Assembly (NCBI GenBank): GCA_012735585.1 | Contig: JAAYGX010000104.1 | Span: 1-57,708, forward strand | DNA from: Tissierella sp. | GTDB lineage: Bacteria; Bacillota; Clostridia; Tissierellales; Tissierellaceae | Direction of reading: 5' to 3' | DNA length: 57,708 nucleotides | Shown here: one piece after another, positions 16,701 through 48,621 of the stretch | How the letters are laid out: every line of letters begins with the position of its first letter | How positions within the stretch are numbered: the first letter of the stretch is position 1 | Position numbers and translations under genes: made by a program | Notes under the pieces: model-generated | What the model saw: the letters and a program-made list of their open reading frames with translations, nothing else | Told to the model about the DNA's origin: nothing | The model's database searches: none

Positions 16701-16829
16701 TCTTCTCATCCCAGCTTTAGCTGGGAGAGATTTTGATTTACTGAAACATTAGATTGATTGTAGCTATCATTTTGTTCTTGTACTAATACTTAAACTTTGA
16801 TATCATATCTATGAGAAAATTAAATATAT

Positions 16830-16985
16830 TGTAGTCCGTAAGGGACAAAGGGAAAGTGGTAAAATCCACTGCAGCCCCCGCTACTGTAATTGGGTACGAA
16901 ACCAACAAGATCCACTGGGAAACTGGGAAGGTGTTGGGATTAGGATGATCCATAAGCCAGGATACCTTTAAAACAATATTGCCTC
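16830..16985 (+). ncRNA. Cobalamin riboswitch
   Basis: The conserved core is plain: GGGAAAGTGGTAAAATCCAC (about 16850), the GCAGCCCCCGCTACTG block at 16871-16886, and the B12-box end AAGCCAGGATACCT at 16954-16967. It precedes the corrinoid importer genes and a terminator hairpin at 17006-17038. Bound adenosyl- or methylcobalamin should favour the terminator and shut off the importer. Confidence 0.93.
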
Positions 16986-17116: not shown

Positions 17117-18097
17117 ATGAAAAGAAATTTAAAGAAGATTTCATTACTTTTTGTAATGATGTTGATTTTAGTAGGACTTGCAGCTTGTGCAAATGAAGCA
17201 TCAGATAAAGGTGAAGATATAGTAGAGCCACCCGTACAGGAAGAAACAACAGGTGATGTAGAAATAGCAGATAAATTCCCTTTAGAAATAGAAGACGCTT
17301 TTGGTAATGTTGTTGTAATAGAAAATGCTCCAGAAAGAATAATATCATTGGCACCAAGCCACACTGAAATTCTATATGCATTAGACTTAGGTGACAAAGT
17401 AGTAGGAGTTACTGCTTTTTGTGATTACCCAGAAGAAGCACTAGCGGTAGAAAAAATCGGTGATTTTAATGGAACAAACCTTGAAAAAATTATTGAACTT
17501 GAACCAGATTTAATTGTAAGCTATGGAGAAGTCAGTGATGAAGAAAATAGTATGTTTGAAAGTGCAGGTATACCAGTAATTGCATATATGCCAGAATCAA
17601 TGGATGAAGTAATCGAAACTATAAATCAAATAGCCAAGGCGACTGATGTAGTTGAAGAAGGTAATACTTTAACAAATAATATGATACAAAAAAGAGATGA
17701 AATAGTAGCGAAGGTACAAGATTCTCAAGCAGTTAAAGCATTTTATGAAGTTTGGCATGAACCTCTAATGGCTGCAGGATCAGGCTCATTTGTAGATGGT
17801 CTAATTAACTTAGCTAATGGAATAAATATAGCTAGTGATGCAGAGGGTGCTTATCCAAACTATGATGTTGAACAATTAATAGAAAATGACCCACAGGTCT
17901 ATCTGACAGCAAATATGGATTCGCCAGACATTACAGTAGAGACTATTTCAGCAAGGCCTGGCTATGACAATATAACTGCAGTAAAAAATGGAGATATTTA
18001 TCTATTGGATGGAAATATCATATCAAGACCTGGGCCAAGAATAGTCGAAGGATTAGAACTAATTGCTCGTGCTTTACATCCAGAAGCATTTGAATAA
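17117..18097 (+). CDS. btuF: Corrinoid ABC transporter substrate-binding lipoprotein
   Basis: Periplasmic-type binding protein of 326 residues, lipid-anchored through the lipobox LAAC after a hydrophobic signal (about 9-24). It belongs to the BtuF/FhuD class with the family phrases PERIISLAPSHTEILYAL, VVGVTAFCDYPEEA and LEPDLIVSYG. The class also binds ferric siderophores; the cobalamin riboswitch upstream makes corrinoids the likely ligand. First gene of a three-gene operon with AGGAGGA ribosome binding site. Confidence 0.9.
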   Translation: MKRNLKKISLLFVMMLILVGLAACANEASDKGEDIVEPPVQEETTGDVEIADKFPLEIEDAFGNVVVIENAPERIISLAPSHTEILYALDLGDKVVGVTAFCDYPEEALAVEKIGDFNGTNLEKIIELEPDLIVSYGEVSDEENSMFESAGIPVIAYMPESMDEVIETINQIAKATDVVEEGNTLTNNMIQKRDEIVAKVQDSQAVKAFYEVWHEPLMAAGSGSFVDGLINLANGINIASDAEGAYPNYDVEQLIENDPQVYLTANMDSPDITVETISARPGYDNITAVKNGDIYLLDGNIISRPGPRIVEGLELIARALHPEAFE

Positions 18098-18112: not shown

Positions 18113-19156
18113 TTGAGAAGGAATAAGACCAAATATAGTCTAATAATTATTGTGCTAATAATTTCATTAATATTTGCTATCGGATTATTTACAACAATAG
18201 GTACTGCTAAAGTTAGTGTATTAGATATATTTAAAATAATAGGTTCAAAAGTATCTTTTATGGAGAAATATATAGATATTTCAGATATAGCCGATTCATC
18301 TAAGACAATTATCTGGAATATTAGATTGCCTAGGGTCTTATTAGGTGCCCTAGTTGGTGCCAGTTTATCCATGGCTGGCGCTTCCTTTCAGGGGATGTTT
18401 AAAAACCCTATGGCTGATCCCTATGTAATCGGGATATCCTCTGGGGCAGCTTTAGGAGCTACTTTAGCAATTGTTTTTAAACTTAATATTGGAATCTTTA
18501 ATATACCTACTATAACAATATTTGCATTTGTAGGAGCTTTACTAGCTGTTAGTCTAGTCTATAATATAGCAAGAATAAAAAATAAGGTTCCTGTAACTAC
18601 ATTATTACTAGCTGGTGTTGCAGTAGGGCAATTTTTGACTGCTATAATGTCATTTTTAATGGTGATTTTTGATAAGGATATGGTGAAGATCACCTACTGG
18701 ACCTTAGGAAGCCTATCAGGAAAAGGCTGGGAGCCGGTATTAACTATAGCATTACCTGTTATTATATGTATGATAGTTATTAACTTTTTTGCTAGGGATT
18801 TAAATATTTTACTGACAGGAGAGGAGTCAGCCCAAAGTTTAGGTATTGATGTTGAAAAGACTAAGACCTATATTCTTTTGCTAGGAACATTTATTACTGC
18901 AATAAGCGTATCTGTAAGCGGTATTATTGGATTTGTTGGACTGATCATACCTCATATAGTGAGACTTTTAATAGGTCCCGATCATAGAATTCTCCTACCA
19001 GCATCAGCACTGTTAGGAAGTATATTTATGATATTTGCTGATACAATTGCAAGGACTTTAATTTCTCCAATTGAGATACCTGTAGGCATAATCACTGCAT
19101 TATTTGGAGGACCATTTTTCATATATCTATTAAGATCAAAGAAGAAAAGTATATAG
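18113..19156 (+). CDS. btuC: Corrinoid ABC transporter permease (FecCD family)
   Basis: Permease of 347 residues, about ten spans. Family hallmarks: RLPRVLLGALVGASLSMAGA, FKNPMADPYVIGISSGAALGA, the cytoplasmic GEESAQSLGID coupling loop and GFVGLIIPHIVRLLIGPDHR. Starts with TTG fifteen bases after btuF. Assigned to corrinoid rather than iron transport by the riboswitch. Confidence 0.92.
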   Translation: MRRNKTKYSLIIIVLIISLIFAIGLFTTIGTAKVSVLDIFKIIGSKVSFMEKYIDISDIADSSKTIIWNIRLPRVLLGALVGASLSMAGASFQGMFKNPMADPYVIGISSGAALGATLAIVFKLNIGIFNIPTITIFAFVGALLAVSLVYNIARIKNKVPVTTLLLAGVAVGQFLTAIMSFLMVIFDKDMVKITYWTLGSLSGKGWEPVLTIALPVIICMIVINFFARDLNILLTGEESAQSLGIDVEKTKTYILLLGTFITAISVSVSGIIGFVGLIIPHIVRLLIGPDHRILLPASALLGSIFMIFADTIARTLISPIEIPVGIITALFGGPFFIYLLRSKKKSI

Positions 19157-19162
19157 AAGGTA

Positions 19163-20404
19163 GTGGAGAATATGAATGCTATAGATGTAAATAATTTAGA
19201 GTTTGGATATAAAGACAATTTAGTTATAAAGGACATTAGCTTTAGCATTAAAGCTGGAAGTTTTGTAAGTATTTTAGGTCCTAATGGATCAGGAAAATCA
19301 ACATTACTTAAAACCTTAAACAATCTATATAACCCAAATAATGGCAGTATACAATTATATGGCAAGGATATATTATCCTATAAAAAAAGGGAACTTGCCA
19401 AGAAGATTGCCCTAGTTCCCCAGGATACCAATATTGAATATGAGTTTACAGTGGAAGACATAGTTATGATGGGTAGACATCCATATAAAAATCGTTTTGA
19501 AAATGAAAATGAGATTGATCATAAAATTGTAAATGAATCCTTAGAATTGACCTATACTTTAAATTTAAAGGATAGAATTATAAATCAAATATCAGGTGGA
19601 GAGAGACAAAGGGCTATTATTGCTAAAGCATTAGCACAAAAGCCTGCAATAATATTATTAGATGAGCCAACATCAAACCTTGATATAAATCATCAAATGG
19701 ATATTCTAAATCTATTAAAAAAATTAAATCATGAAAATGGACTTACAGTAGTTTTAGTTATACATGATATTAACCTAGCTTGTAGATATTCAGATGAAAT
19801 AATATTGCTTCATAAAGGAAAAATTCTAGGTATTGGGGCACCGGAAGAGGTTATCACAGTTGAAAATATGGAAGATGCATATGATATGAAGGTAGCTCTA
19901 GAAAAGAATAAATACACAGATACAATTCATTTAACACCAATTGAGATTAAAGAAAAGAATAAAAACTTTAAAAATAATAAAGTTCACATAATCTGCGGCG
20001 GAGGATCAGGCCAAGAAATTATAAATAAACTATATTCTGAAGGATTTGAACTATCATTAGGAGTGCTAAATATAGGTGATAGTGATTGGGAACATGGTAG
20101 AAATTTAAATATTCCTATGGTTGAAGAGATTCCATTTTCAGGTATCAGTAATCAATCATATCAGGAAAATGTAGAGGTAATGAATAAATCAGATATTATA
20201 GTAATTTCAAACGTTCCCATAGGATCAGGTAACTTAAAAAATTTACTAGGTGCTAAAGATGCCTTAGAAAAAGGGAAGAAGGTATATTACATAGCCGAAA
20301 ATTCTCAGGAGTATGATTATACAGAGGGAGAAGCAAAAAAGATTATAGAGGAAATGCTAAAAAAAGGAATGCAAAGTGTAAGGTCAGTAGATGAATTATT
20401 ATAA
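19163..20404 (+). CDS. btuD: Corrinoid ABC transporter ATPase with an extra C-terminal domain
   Basis: ATPase of 413 residues, about 150 longer than the usual 255-265. Residues 1-255 form a complete BtuD/FepC-type domain: Walker A GPNGSGKST (39-47), signature SGGER (143-147), Walker B ILLDEP (164-169), switch His201. Residues about 272-413 form a second domain starting KVHIICGGGSGQEII, with a glycine-rich loop after a beta strand, then GVLNIGDSDWEHG and IVISNVPIGSGNLKNL. This looks like a Rossmann-type nucleotide fold. I recall similar extensions on other corrinoid transporter ATPases but know no function. Start is GTG 19163 or ATG 19172; neither has an ideal ribosome binding site. Confidence 0.88.
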   Translation: MENMNAIDVNNLEFGYKDNLVIKDISFSIKAGSFVSILGPNGSGKSTLLKTLNNLYNPNNGSIQLYGKDILSYKKRELAKKIALVPQDTNIEYEFTVEDIVMMGRHPYKNRFENENEIDHKIVNESLELTYTLNLKDRIINQISGGERQRAIIAKALAQKPAIILLDEPTSNLDINHQMDILNLLKKLNHENGLTVVLVIHDINLACRYSDEIILLHKGKILGIGAPEEVITVENMEDAYDMKVALEKNKYTDTIHLTPIEIKEKNKNFKNNKVHIICGGGSGQEIINKLYSEGFELSLGVLNIGDSDWEHGRNLNIPMVEEIPFSGISNQSYQENVEVMNKSDIIVISNVPIGSGNLKNLLGAKDALEKGKKVYYIAENSQEYDYTEGEAKKIIEEMLKKGMQSVRSVDELL

Positions 20405-20444
20405 TGGGACAGGGAGTCAGTGAACTGACTTCCTGTCCCATTAT
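20401..20444. terminator. Long hairpin between convergent btuD and the Na+ symporter gene
   Basis: A 21-bp stem, with one mismatch, joins 20401-20421 and 20424-20444 (ATAATGGGACAGG ... CCTGTCCCATTAT). It overlaps the btuD stop and ends just before the stop of the convergent gene. There is no strong T run on either side; probably a bidirectional terminator. Confidence 0.6.
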
Positions 20445-20446
20445 AG

Positions 20447-21853
20447 CTAAACTAGAATCCCCAATGAGTTTAAAAATACAATAATAATTAGGAAAAGTGC
20501 TATATATTTTGTTAGAAAATAATAGATAGATATCATTCTATTATTAGCCAATGAATAATCATTACTAAGTTCCTTCACAAGATCTGATTTTGCTGTAAAA
20601 TATCCTAAGAATATTATAATCAAAGATCCGTTAATCGGCATTAAAATATTGGATGAGACGAAGTCAAAAAAATTAAAAAGACTCATTCCAAATAGTTGGG
20701 TATTTCCAAAAATACTTTCTGGATGTACCGTCAAAACCCCTACAATACTAATAATGGCGATGGTAGAAATAACGGCAGTCTTTCTTTTAAGATCAAACTC
20801 TTCAGTTAGAAAGGCTACAGGTACCTCAACTAGTGAAAGCATAGCCATAGTAGCAGCTAAAGATGTTAATAGAAAAAATATAATTATTAATAGATTTCCA
20901 AAAGGAATCCTTGAGAATACCAATGGGATCGTATTAAAAAGCAATGCTGGACCTGAAGTAGGTTCCAATCCAAAGGTAAATACCACAGGAAATATTGCTA
21001 AACCAACAGTTATAGACACCAATGTATCTGATAATACAACTTTAAATGCATTATTTATCATATTATTATCCTCAGTAATATAACTACCATAAGTAATCAT
21101 AGTCCCCACACCTATGGACACTTTAAAAAAAGCTAAACCCAATGCTGCTAGTATCATTGATGGGGTTATAGTAGAAAAATCCACTCTAAAAAGAAAATCT
21201 ACACCTTCTTTAGCGCCATCAAGATTTAAGGCTACTACACATGTTACAATTATTAGCAAAAATAAAATTGGCATAGATGTTTTTGTCACTTTTTCTATTC
21301 CATTTTTAACCCCAGCAATTAGTATAATAGTTACAAATAATATTGGCACTAGTTGCCATATCATAGGTGAAATAGAACCAGACACTGTTGAATTATATAG
21401 ATTTACAATAATATCGGCTGCTTCATTTATTGGAAGAGATGAAATATCAAGAAAATCTCCTTTAATAGCCTTAAATAAATATGAGTAAACCCATCCTGCC
21501 ACTGCACTATAGAAGAACATTATAAAAAATGTAGCTATTACACCAAGATATCCGACGACTTTAAAGAACGTTGGAGTTTTTAGTTTTTCAAATGCTCCTA
21601 CAGGATTACTTCTAGATCTTCTTCCTATATAGAATTCAGATATCATCACCGGTACACTTACTAATAATACTGATATAAGATATATTAATATAAATGCTCC
21701 ACCACCATTGGTTCCAACCATGGATGGGAACTTCCATATATTCCCTAGTCCAACTGCTGAGCTTAATGTGGCAAAAAATACAGCTATACCAGATGAAAAA
21801 GTTTCACGATTGTCTATTACATTATTTGTCTCTTTTTTTCTGATCTTGTACAT
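20447..21853 (-). CDS. Sodium-dependent transporter, neurotransmitter:sodium symporter (NSS/SNF) family
   Basis: Na+-coupled amino acid transporter of 468 residues, about 11-12 spans. The first span carries the NSS Na+-site motif SAVGLGNIWKFP with GTNGGGAFILIY after it, as in LeuT and MhsT. Substrate is not predictable, though Na+ symport of an amino acid fits this organism. The ATG is used because the frame offers no other start, but the AAAGGAG touches it with no spacing, which is odd. A good sigma-A promoter lies 27 bases upstream. Confidence 0.9.
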   Translation of the reverse strand: MYKIRKKETNNVIDNRETFSSGIAVFFATLSSAVGLGNIWKFPSMVGTNGGGAFILIYLISVLLVSVPVMISEFYIGRRSRSNPVGAFEKLKTPTFFKVVGYLGVIATFFIMFFYSAVAGWVYSYLFKAIKGDFLDISSLPINEAADIIVNLYNSTVSGSISPMIWQLVPILFVTIILIAGVKNGIEKVTKTSMPILFLLIIVTCVVALNLDGAKEGVDFLFRVDFSTITPSMILAALGLAFFKVSIGVGTMITYGSYITEDNNMINNAFKVVLSDTLVSITVGLAIFPVVFTFGLEPTSGPALLFNTIPLVFSRIPFGNLLIIIFFLLTSLAATMAMLSLVEVPVAFLTEEFDLKRKTAVISTIAIISIVGVLTVHPESIFGNTQLFGMSLFNFFDFVSSNILMPINGSLIIIFLGYFTAKSDLVKELSNDYSLANNRMISIYYFLTKYIALFLIIIVFLNSLGILV

Positions 21854-28635: not shown

Positions 28636-28670
28636 TAGAAAAAATAACTGTTACGAAAGGAGGGACATTG

Positions 28671-29981
28671 GTGGGTAATATTAGAGTCGTGCATTATCTA
28701 AACCAATTCTTTGCGGGGATCGGTGGAGAGGAAAAAGCAGATCACAGACCTGAAGTGAGGGAAGCAGTAGTAGGCCCAGGTATGGCTATTAAAGCTGGAT
28801 TCAAAGGTCAAGCTGATATCGTTGCTACAGTTATTTGCGGCGATAGCTACTTTGGTGAAAACACAGAAGAAGCTAAGGCTGAAATATTAGAATTAATTAA
28901 AAAGTACGAGCCTGATTTATTCATAGCGGGGCCAGCTTTTAATGCAGGTAGATATGGATTTGCATGTGGTGAAGTTGCAGATATGGTCCAAAAAGAACTT
29001 AATATCCCTGCGATTACTGGTATGTATATTGAAAATCCAGGTGCAGAGATGTTCAAGAAATCTGTCTATATAATATCTACTAAAAATAGTGCTGCAGGCA
29101 TGAGAGATGCTGTAGGCAAGATGGTTCCACTGGCATTAAAACTCATTAATGGTGAAGAAATAGGTTCACCAGAGAAAGAAGGCTATATAGAAAGAGGACT
29201 AAGGAAGAACTACTTTGCGGATAAAAGAGGATCTGAAAGAGCTGTGGATATGATTATCAAAAAGCTTAAAGGTGAAGAATATAAAACCGAATATCCAATG
29301 CCAGCTTTTGATAGAGTGCCTCCAAATCCAGCTATAAAGAATATGTCCGAAGCCACAATAGCTTTAGTAACATCAGGAGGAATTGTTCCAAAGGGCAATC
29401 CAGATCATATTGAATCATCATCTGCTTCTAAATATGGGAAATATGATATATCGGAGTTTGATAATTTAACTGATATCACTCATGAAACAGCCCATGGAGG
29501 GTATGACCCTGTTTATGCAAATTTAGATCCAGATAGGGTACTACCAGTAGATGTACTAAGGGATTTAGAAAAAGAAGGAAAAATAGGTAAACTCCATAGA
29601 TATTTCTATACAACAGTAGGCAATGGTACGGCAGTAGCTAGTGCTAAAGCATTTGCCGAAGAGTTTGGAAAGGAATTAAAAGCTGATGGAGTGGATGCAG
29701 TGATCCTAACTTCAACCTGAGGCACCTGTACACGTTGCGGTGCAACAATGGTTAAAGAAATTGAAAGGGTAGGTATTCCTGTAGTTCATGTTTGTACAGT
29801 TGTTCCAATATCCATGACTGTAGGTGCAAACAGGATAGTCCCTGCCATAGCTATACCTCACCCACTTGGAGATCCAAAATTGGATCCAAATGAGGAAAAA
29901 AATCTTAGAAGAAAAATAGTTAATAAAGCACTAGAAGCATTATCAACAGAAGTTGAGTTACAAACAGTTTTTGAAGATTAG
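28671..29981 (+). CDS. grdB: Glycine reductase complex component B, selenoprotein gamma subunit (in-frame UGA = Sec350)
   Basis: Protein of 436 residues with selenocysteine. The frame begins VVHYLNQFFAGIGGEEKAD, typical of GrdB, and passes through TGA 29718-29720 in LTST-U-GTCTRCGAT before ending at 29981. With GTG 28671 as start the Sec is residue 350, the known position in the family, and the AGGAGGG spacing is also better than for TTG 28668. Sec and the nearby CxxC residues take part in release of the glycine carboxymethyl group. Without UGA decoding it would be annotated as two ORFs. Confidence 0.96.
29718..29746 (+). promoter_or_regulatory. Candidate SECIS region of grdB
   Basis: The UGA is followed directly by GCACC (29722-29726) pairing with GGTGC (29739-29743); an alternative stem GTTGC/GCAAC lies at 29734-29746. 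Hand fold only. Confidence 0.45.
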
Positions 29982-46947: not shown

Positions 46948-46971
46948 AGTTAACAATGTTAAATATATTTT

Positions 46972-47226
46972 CAGTGAAGCAAAGAAGTAATTATGTTGAG
47001 TATATCTTACAGAGAACTGGGTAAGCTGAGAGCCAGTAGATTGAAATCTTAATGAATAGAGTTGCTGAGATTAATGAGACAAAGCCTAGGTGAGTATCTC
47101 ATTACGTATTCAAAGCGTTATTTGATTTAAGTTGTATTTTATAAATGATTATAAAATATAATTAGAGTGGCACCACGGGTATAAAACTCGTCTCTTATAT
47201 ATAAAATAAGAGACGAGTTTATTTTT
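46972..47226 (+). ncRNA. T-box leader (tRNA-sensing riboswitch)
   Basis: Stem I is bounded by AGCAA (about 46978-46982) and TTGCT (about 47062-47066). It carries AGTA on its 5' side, the apical ACTGG...CCAGT with the AG-rich loop (47015-47037), and GAAATCTT (47043-47050) on the specifier side. The T-box sequence AGAGTGGCACCACGGGT is at 47164-47180 and a terminator at 47184-47226 follows. By alignment to the glyQS T-box the specifier would be UCU (Ser), but AUC in the next register is possible, so the amino acid is unsure. The UGGC bulge predicts a tRNA with discriminator G. It controls the amino acid importer downstream. Confidence 0.9.
47184..47226 (+). terminator. T-box-controlled terminator
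   Basis: AAACTCGTCTCTTAT (47184-47198) pairs with ATAAGAGACGAGTTT (47206-47220), then ATTTTTA. Uncharged tRNA should favour the competing antiterminator. Confidence 0.9.
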
Positions 47227-47243: not shown

Positions 47244-47900
47244 TTGAATATTTTAGAAGTATTTGTAAAATATAGGGTTTATTATTTTACAGGAATTAAA
47301 ATCACTTTATTATTATCATTTGGAGCACTTATTATTGGGACAACTTTAGGGTCATTATTAAGTCTTGTACGATTATCAAAAAATAAGGTTCTCCAATTTC
47401 TTGCAAGGGTATATATAGAAGTAGTACGTGGTACCCCAATGATGGTACAAATATCTCTTGTATATTTTGGTTCATATGCCTTGTTAGGTATAGATATAGA
47501 TGGATTTGTAGCAGCATTAATTGCAGTTGCTTTAAATAGTACTGCATATGTAGCTGAAATTATTCGTTCAGGAATACAATCCATTGATAAAGGACAAACT
47601 GAAGCTAGTAGAAGTCTTGGCTTAACCAGTGGTCAAACTATGAGACATATCATATTACCACAAGCAGTTAAAAATATATTGCCTACTTTAGGAAATGAAT
47701 TTGTAACATTGATAAAAGAAACATCAGTAGCATCAACTATAGGTGTAGCAGAATTAATGTATGCATCAAAGATAGTACAAAGTACTAGTTTCCAACCATT
47801 TACTCCTTTGGTTATTGTAGCAGTATTATACTTTATATTTACATTTACAATATCCCAATTGGTAGCTTTGTTTGAAAGGAGATTATCACATAATGATTAA
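47244..47900 (+). CDS. Polar amino acid ABC transporter permease (HisM/GlnP family)
   Basis: Membrane subunit of 218 residues with about five spans. Family motifs: [81 protein letters not shown] (EAA loop) and [14 protein letters not shown]. Starts at TTG 47244 behind AAGGAGGA. The ATPase follows, coupled by overlap; the binding protein is not encoded nearby. Confidence 0.92.
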
Positions 47901-48621
47901 AATCGTAGGATTAAACAAATTTTTTGGAGAAAAACATGTATTAAAAAATATAAATTTAGAAATAAAAGATGGTGAAGTCATCGGATTAATAGGACCATCT
48001 GGCTCTGGGAAAAGTACATTAATTAGATGTATGAATTTTTTAGAAGAGCCAAGTTCAGGAAGTGTTTATATCAATGGTACTGATTTATCAAAGGCTGGCA
48101 ATGATATCAATATGATTAGACAGCAAATAGGAATGGTGTTTCAACATTTTCACCTATTTCCCCATAAAACAGTGCTTGAAAATATAACAACGGCTCCCAT
48201 ATTAACAGGTAAGTCTACTAAAGAAGAAGCTGAAAAGAAAGCGGTAGAGCTACTTAAGACTATGGATTTATTAGATAAAAAAGATGCATATCCTAATTCT
48301 TTATCAGGGGGTCAAAAGCAAAGAATTGCCATAGCTAGGTCCCTTGCCATGGATCCTAAGATCATCCTTTTTGACGAAGTAACATCAGCTTTGGACCCTG
48401 AAATGGTAGGTGAAGTCTTAAATGTAATGAAGGATTTAGCAAAAACAGGAATGACTATGGTGGTAGTTACCCATGAAATGGCCTTTGCAAAACAAGTGGC
48501 AGATCGAGTGATTTTTATGGCAGATGGAGAAATTGTAGAAGAAAATAAGGCTGTAGATTTATTTGAAAGACCACAAAATCCAAGAACCGTTGAATTTCTA
48601 TCAAAAGTCTTGGAATATTAA
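47893..48621 (+). CDS. Polar amino acid ABC transporter ATP-binding protein (GlnQ/HisP family)
   Basis: ATPase of 242 residues. Walker [11 protein letters not shown], signature [17 protein letters not shown], Walker [16 protein letters not shown] (Val where many have Pro), switch His in [12 protein letters not shown] 47893 overlaps the permease stop by eight bases and has AAAGGAGA nine bases upstream, so the earlier ATG 47872 is not used. Confidence 0.93.

Follow-up and report, generated by a model that had tools for sequence, protein, structure and literature searches.

Uptake of vitamin B12 through BtuCDF is a textbook system of ABC transport. The ATPase chains of Escherichia coli BtuD (4fi3, B12) and Yersinia HmuV (4g1u, heme) comprise 248-262 residues and carry no tail. 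A longer form is collected in the NCBIfam family NF007082 ("corrinoid ABC transporter ATPase", 402 positions; also PRK09536, haloarchaeal BtuD type), in which an ABC part is followed by a C-terminal domain, with a BtuC-type permease and a B12 context alongside; the family names the whole protein and says nothing on the function of the tail. The btuCDF genes of Halobacterium have reportedly been the subject of genetic work.

C-terminal domains are also found on other importer ATPases, that of MetN being a NIL domain. In the portion of the source cited here, the C-terminal domains of E. coli MetN (C2) and Methanosarcina ModC, which have two different folds, bind substrate and stop the cycle, and protein-level control is documented there for these two transporters without mention of BtuCD (PMC10710835).

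Here we describe the C-terminal domain of an ATPase from Tissierella sp. that shares its architecture, its type of permease and its B12 context with NF007082, and we weigh what this domain may do. On present evidence it is a real but unexplained module on a known importer family and not a new kind of system.

Results

The importer locus

The window, by which we mean the whole stretch of 57,708 nucleotides of Tissierella sp. DNA that was analysed (contig JAAYGX010000104.1), holds a cobalamin riboswitch followed by genes for a BtuF-like protein, a BtuC-like permease and the ATPase, in that order:

16819..16985, + strand, cobalamin riboswitch RF00174 (cmscan 89.3 bits, E 8.7e-21)
17117..18097, + strand, BtuF-like substrate-binding protein (PF01497, E 5.5e-35)
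18113..19156, + strand, BtuC-like permease (PF01032, E 1.3e-99)
19163..20404, + strand, corrinoid-type ABC transporter ATPase with C-terminal extra domain (413 aa, GTG start, intact open reading frame)
19163..19948, + strand, ABC (nucleotide-binding) part of the ATPase, residues 1-262 (PF00005 at residues 23-171; alignment with six of eight domainless orthologs)
19976..20401, + strand, Rossmann-like C-terminal domain, residues 272-413 (AlphaFold2 and family alignments)

These neighbours place the ATPase firmly in a B12 context and bear out an earlier note on this DNA, which had read the host protein as the ATPase of a corrinoid importer. The BtuF-like protein has TIGR04281 as its best NCBIfam match (E 2e-45) and also matches NF002894 BtuF (E 1.9e-32), both under the cut-off, and the permease matches NF007081 BtuC at E 3.4e-104 with 349 bits against a cut-off of 461. 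The ABC part superposes on HmuV with Z 31.9 and rmsd 2.0 over 255, and on BtuD with Z 29.7 and rmsd 2.3 over 241. The earlier note had also claimed a complete domain past the ABC core, marked by CGGGSG, GVLNIGDSDWEHG and SNVPIGSGNLKNL; this was confirmed for residues 272-413, which contain all three and are conserved as a unit, with 30 invariant columns among the first nine sequences aligned.

Three other features of the window were recorded in passing. A near-perfect inverted repeat at 20400-20445, TATAATGGGACAGGGAGTCAGT-GA-ACTGACTTCCTGTCCCATTATA, overlaps the ATPase stop, lies between the ATPase and a convergent SNF-type sodium symporter gene (20447-21853, - strand) and looks like a two-way terminator. 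An open reading frame at 28668-29720 stops just short of a SECIS_4 element (29721-29758), with thioredoxin reductase and thioredoxin genes nearby, and together (28668-29758) they probably encode a glycine-reductase selenoprotein made by UGA readthrough. A T-box leader (46965-47198) lies upstream of an amino-acid-type ABC transporter (47244-48621).

A known family already covers the fusion

All 73 domain sequences in our alignment (73 of 82 non-redundant ones) match NF007082 at E <= 0.01, and since its profile spans the domain, the fusion falls within an already described protein family. The window protein scores 330.2 bits, with residues 6-355 on profile positions 3-351, and for two haloarchaeal copies the values are 499 and 480 bits, all three falling under the curated cut-off of 537; the window domain by itself matches profile positions 267-351 (E 2.1e-9). 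The description "uncharacterised" in the earlier note therefore holds for Pfam, where the tail alone has no family match at E <= 10; in NCBIfam, NF007082 includes the domain. The fusion of ATPase and domain is not new; the domain itself is without a name or an assigned function, and a survey of literature titles and abstract openings found no description of it.

Predicted fold

AlphaFold2, applied to monomers, modelled the domain from nine sequences with pLDDT 87.9 and pTM 0.85 and with the element order b-a-b-a-b-a-b-a-b-a-b-a. In the full-length model the linker of residues 263-269 is the sole stretch of at least three residues below pLDDT 50. A folded, Rossmann-like alpha/beta domain is predicted with confidence, and the structure prediction and fold search that the earlier note had proposed for residues 270-413 thus returned a confident Rossmann-like model, with pocket-like conservation after the strands.

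Comparison with known folds by VIA-align placed TIR at the top (Z 10.3, rmsd 2.7, 116 aligned), followed by LOG (Z 10.0, rmsd 4.0 over 137) and the Moco carrier (Z 9.9, rmsd 4.2 over 127), with deoxyribosyltransferase (NDT) further down (Z 9.4, rmsd 4.5 over 120). The SLOG proteins (LOG, Moco carrier, DprA), TIR and NDT thus rank high, but a catalase domain (Z 9.8), an oxidoreductase (9.6) and MurG (9.6) tie with them, and cinnamoyl-CoA reductase and lariciresinol reductases also fall within one Z unit. Foldseek against the PDB favoured NADP-type reductases, the best match being to one from a plant (E 3.2e-4, TM about 0.5). In a search against viral models, several of the matches listed are to SLOG and NDT proteins, and no model reached E <= 0.001. 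A sequence search of the domain against solved structures gave no credible match (best E 0.7), and the fold search with the whole protein was filled by matches covering residues 3-262.

Profile comparison by hhalign, with profiles built from the part of the loci returned (12 LOG, 18 DprA, 19 TrkA_N and 12 NAD_binding_10 rows), aligned the profile of one of the two subfamilies of the domain, group A, with that of the other, group B, at 99.8%. The group-A profile scored 65% with DprA, 60% with TrkA_N (89 columns), 6% with NAD_binding_10 and 1.3% with LOG; as controls, LOG and DprA (both SLOG) gave 63% and TrkA_N and NAD_binding_10 (classical Rossmann) gave 93%. Among 73 single members scanned against Pfam, weak and scattered matches were returned to F420_oxidored (14 of 73, best E 1.9e-5), DAGK_cat (14 of 73, best E 1.8e-4), CofD (8 of 73) and LDcluster4 (3 of 73, best E 0.0057); those to DAGK_cat and CofD are taken as shared glycine loops. 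Because fold scores were tied, profile scores were similar for DprA and TrkA_N and Pfam matches were weak and scattered, we name the domain Rossmann-like without assigning it to a superfamily.

Classical NAD(P)-binding Rossmann domains combine a GxGxxG loop with an acidic residue at the end of strand 2. Here G279xG281 is kept and the third glycine (position 284) is not, the end of strand 2 has no acidic residue by our by-eye reading, and NAD_binding_10 scores 6%; a classical NAD-binding domain was not adopted. These features also bear on a reading in which the domain responds to redox or energy state by way of NAD(P)H or ATP, in the manner of the RCK/TrkA_N domains of potassium channels. The TrkA_N score, the F420_oxidored matches and the likeness to the TrkA ring 3l4b (Z 8.8, rmsd 3.5 over 114) point that way, but DprA scores as high as TrkA_N, a true classical pair reaches 93%, and in place of the expected acidic residue the conserved aspartate pair, D306 and D308, lies a few residues on. 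We regard such a sensor as improbable.

Two further assignments were tried and rejected. The motif of B12-binding domains is DxHxxG; the DWEHG of the window does not fit this spacing, position 311 varies (most commonly A, V, L or I in group A), and the tail matches no Pfam family. LOG phosphoribohydrolases carry PGGxGTxxE, seen as PGGIGTIEE in one LOG sequence. It is absent from the domain, which has P-x-G-x-G-N-x-x-N instead, with N360 in 66 of 67 group-A sequences; the two can be laid on each other with the LOG glutamate replaced by this conserved asparagine, a likeness that we treat as a lead only.

A candidate pocket under purifying selection

In Rossmann-like folds the ligand side is formed by the loops that follow the strands. 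Four such loops of the domain, all on the + strand, carry conserved motifs:

19997..20005, + strand, glycine loop G279-G280-G281 after strand 1 (66, 66 and 62 of 67 group-A sequences)
20078..20086, + strand, D306-x-D308 after strand 2 (67 and 64 of 67 group-A; 14 and 14 of 15 group-B)
20216..20242, + strand, P352-x-G354-x-G356-N357-x-x-N360 loop after strand 4 (65, 66, 63, 67 and 66 of 67 group-A)
20315..20329, + strand, D385-[YF]-T-x-G389 loop after strand 5 (D in 67 of 67 and G in 65 of 67 group-A; not kept in group B)

Fifteen positions are kept in at least 95% of the 67 group-A sequences (H275, G279, G280, L290, G300, D306, D308, P324, F325, P352, G354, N357, N360, D385 and G389), and 11 of these lie in post-strand loops (hypergeometric P 0.0025, with loop limits drawn by the analyst from the model). 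Group B keeps G279, G281, G300, D306, D308 and N360 in 12 to 15 of its 15 copies, in which H275 and D385 are not conserved. Of the two haloarchaeal copies, read by eye, one keeps the histidine, the aspartate pair and both asparagines, the other the histidine and the first aspartate only. Mapped on the predicted model, this pattern marks a pocket-like candidate site after the strands. The earlier proposal of a nucleotide- or cofactor-binding domain is borne out to this extent, in an intact Rossmann-like fold with pocket-like conservation.

The domain is under purifying selection in relatives, its dN/dS being about 0.09, 0.11, 0.13, 0.13 and 0.16 in five pairs (dS 0.3 to 1.1), against 0.05, 0.07, 0.06, 0.09 and 0.11 for the ABC part. 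The five usable pairs out of 11 are all between relatives, pairs with the window's own sequence being too diverged; the other six had dS over 1.6, no dS, or identical sequences. These ratios touch on the notion that the domain is a structural or scaffolding tail that binds no small ligand and steadies the ATPase dimer or docks downstream B12 enzymes. Its dN/dS is somewhat above that of the ABC part in all five usable pairs and it is missing from eight syntenic relatives (below), both in keeping with such a tail; but conservation is concentrated in post-strand loops, and D306 and D308 are kept in both subfamilies and jointly in one of the two haloarchaeal copies. We consider a purely structural tail unlikely.

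The conserved residues H275, D306, D308, N357, N360 and D385 have an enzyme-like character. They suggest a possible role as an acceptor or processing domain, which would take the imported corrinoid at the channel exit and hold, reduce or prepare it before adenosylation and nucleotide-loop assembly; removal of the upper ligand or handling of the lower ligand are possible examples of such chemistry. The likeness of the predicted fold to several kinds of protein, including the nucleotide-handling SLOG, TIR and deoxyribosyltransferase proteins, would agree with this. A further reading places the domain at the edge of this nucleoside-handling group and has it read, or cut, the nucleotide loop of the incoming corrinoid at the importer exit; we regard it as a long shot.

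Distribution and B12 context

Of 398 genomes sampled from the phylum (Bacillota), 125 carry the domain. So do 24 of the 60 relatives, 22 of them with a group-A copy and two with a copy of group B alone. On haloarchaeal plasmids of Halarchaeum and Natrinema the fused ATPase adjoins a BtuC gene. The Halarchaeum domain (L246) was found by tblastn at E 3e-8; it and the Lachnospira eligens copy (L248) are missed by our first domain profile, and their calls rest on NF007082 and by-eye reading, L248 being also placed among group-B ABC parts. The earlier note's view of an intact domain and not a run-on agrees with this spread, with the confident model and with the dN/dS values, against which a run-on or annotation artefact is hardly credible.

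Fusion to the ATPase of B12-type FecCD importers is the rule. An ABC part is present in 121 of 125 domain-bearing entries (duplicates included), and the remaining four trace to a contig end, a frame-broken copy and a degraded one. Open frames of at least 300 aa contain 133 of the 135 domain places, a portion of which the ABC-part check covered; of the two in short frames, one is at a contig end (L084) and the other (L085) at a frame break inside the glycine loop, next to a frame that encodes the ABC part. The idea that the domain might also occur as a stand-alone gene near cobalamin genes was not upheld: no intact stand-alone copy was found among the 135 places in the 398 phylum genomes, the apparent cases being those just listed. 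The seemingly broken copies L085:8820-10369 (- strand, frame break in the glycine loop) and L097:7711-8544 (+ strand, genome G342, ABC part degraded) are possibly draft assembly errors or decaying genes. Apparent long fusions at L086, L088 and L091 look, by our by-eye reading, like GC-rich out-of-frame run-ons preceding the ABC part, and L090, which has the same length as L091, is taken to be another. At L089:7525-9231 (- strand, group B), the end of an ABC part, the domain and a piece of CobN (PF02514 at residues 243-559, E 1.4e-99) share a single frame, which reflects either a true gene fusion or rearrangement or misassembly of this copy.

Both subfamilies are linked to B12, because riboswitches and B12-type neighbour genes occur at group-A and group-B loci alike. 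Among the relatives, 17 of the 21 testable group-A loci have a same-strand cobalamin riboswitch upstream; none was found at those of G033, G039, G041 and G049, and the contig of the 22nd relative, G059, was too short to be counted. Of 15 further phylum loci scanned, seven have a cobalamin riboswitch and none was found near the other eight. Group B comprises 15 loci; of the eight scanned, seven have a B12-class riboswitch no more than about 6 kb upstream. Group-B neighbours (56 of 59 listed were in the scanned alignment) include FecCD 10, binding protein 10, CobN 5, CbiZ 1, CbiC 1 and CbiD 1. In gene content alone, and as far as the cited portion of the source describes it, these loci resemble a Dehalobacter restrictus operon with corrinoid transporters, CbiZ and CobN, whose induction on corrinoid starvation has been reported (PMC4285132). 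The group-B-like copy on a Lachnospira eligens plasmid (L248, 1808-13047) sits in a de novo cobalamin operon with cobaltochelatase, which hints that cobalt or a precursor, and not a finished corrinoid, may be the cargo of this importer.

The same-strand genes downstream of 51 group-A loci bear on a processing role. The 92 proteins scanned include CobU (7), CobA/BtuR (5), histidine phosphatase (5) and CobD/CbiB (3), but the commonest families (HAD hydrolase 10, SpoU 6, Na/Pi cotransporter 5) are not B12 genes, and CobU is no discriminator because it is matched in 58 of 60 relatives (57 above cut-off). The de novo marker CbiC is rarer where a group-A domain is present (9 of 22 relatives) than where the domain is missing altogether (28 of 36; Fisher P 0.010), a pattern that would agree with a part in salvage. 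We give this tendency little weight because it is lost at genus level (P 0.17, seven mixed genera dropped) and against the eight syntenic losers (6 of 8 with CbiC, P 0.21). Domainless loci moreover retain the same downstream genes with no local substitute seen, and the lack of any stand-alone copy is unusual for a salvage enzyme. That we rank processing second among our readings reflects the polar character of the conserved residues and the presence of CobU and CobA among the neighbours.

Syntenic relatives without the domain

Eight ATPases with 61-68% identity (best ABC-part matches), in genomes G010, G025, G014, G020, G032, G009, G022 and G016, end before the domain at a length of 257-261 aa, tailless like BtuD and HmuV. 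In the six that were aligned the ABC core is kept and the chain ends near window residue 262, and no match to the domain profile was found elsewhere in any of the eight genomes. All eight loci keep the window order, with the permease before the ATPase, at 46-84% identity across the neighbours, and have genes for HAD, SpoU, a Na/Pi cotransporter, thioredoxin reductase, thioredoxin and GrdE after it; the symporter gene at 20447-21853 is missing from that place in all eight. A BtuF gene (47-57% identity) and a cobalamin riboswitch about 2.2 kb upstream are present in all five relatives whose contigs reach that far. The permease frame of G025 is short (271 aa against 347), which may reflect a draft error or damage.

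Trees were computed from 80 selected rows and then from 73, after removal of two long branches and five group-B rows. In the 73-row tree the eight domainless ATPases are nested within the clade that bears the domain, and three changes are required to explain them (bootstrap range 2-3, not fully settled); a single change for all eight appears in 1% of bootstrap trees. One further change comes from a paralog clade made up of 11 domainless rows (96/91). This suggests about three losses of the domain among the syntenic group and one in the paralog clade, loss being likelier than repeated gain because the domain is also present in other Bacillota and in haloarchaea.

The earlier note had named loss of the domain in close relatives that retain cobalamin uptake as grounds for refutation, and eight such relatives keep the uptake genes without it. 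Since riboswitch, binding protein, permease and ABC core stay when the domain is lost, it is not part of the pump. Judged from gene content, the losses would bar an essential role, yet they fit an optional role in sensing or processing.

Discussion

The reading that we tentatively place first is that the domain is an ancient, optional, cytosolic ligand-binding C-terminal module that tunes the corrinoid importer. Each of the two ATPase subunits would carry one copy facing the cytosol, whose loops after strands 1-5 might bind a small ligand from that compartment, be it a corrinoid, a corrinoid-nucleotide intermediate or some other nucleotide. Binding would alter the ease with which the two subunits close and would throttle import at the protein level, on top of riboswitch control. 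By analogy, the action of the domain may resemble that of the MetN and ModC regulatory tails, with which the domain shares its position on an importer ATPase; the Rossmann-like fold predicted here is apparently unrelated to their regulatory folds (NIL for MetN), and the tail has no Pfam match, hence none to NIL. What puts regulation ahead of the other readings is the fusion of the domain to the ATPase, the failure to find it as a free protein, and the two precedents of MetN and ModC, whose tails have unrelated folds.

Several observations weigh against regulation of the importer by the domain. Its conserved aspartate, asparagine and histidine residues suit an enzyme equally well, and the models are of monomers, placement at the dimer interface being presumed. 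No riboswitch was found near four of the 21 relatives' loci and eight of the 15 other loci, and the syntenic losers, of which the genes were read, reveal neither deregulated nor continued import.

If the domain did read the nucleotide loop, the importer itself would tell useful cobamides from foreign ones, and a module that recognises or remodels cobamides would lie within a transporter ATPase. More broadly, a widespread, ancient and unnamed domain is carried by a B12 importer ATPase, and syntenic relatives with and without it offer a natural comparison for the question of whether corrinoids are sensed or processed at the importer in bacteria and archaea.
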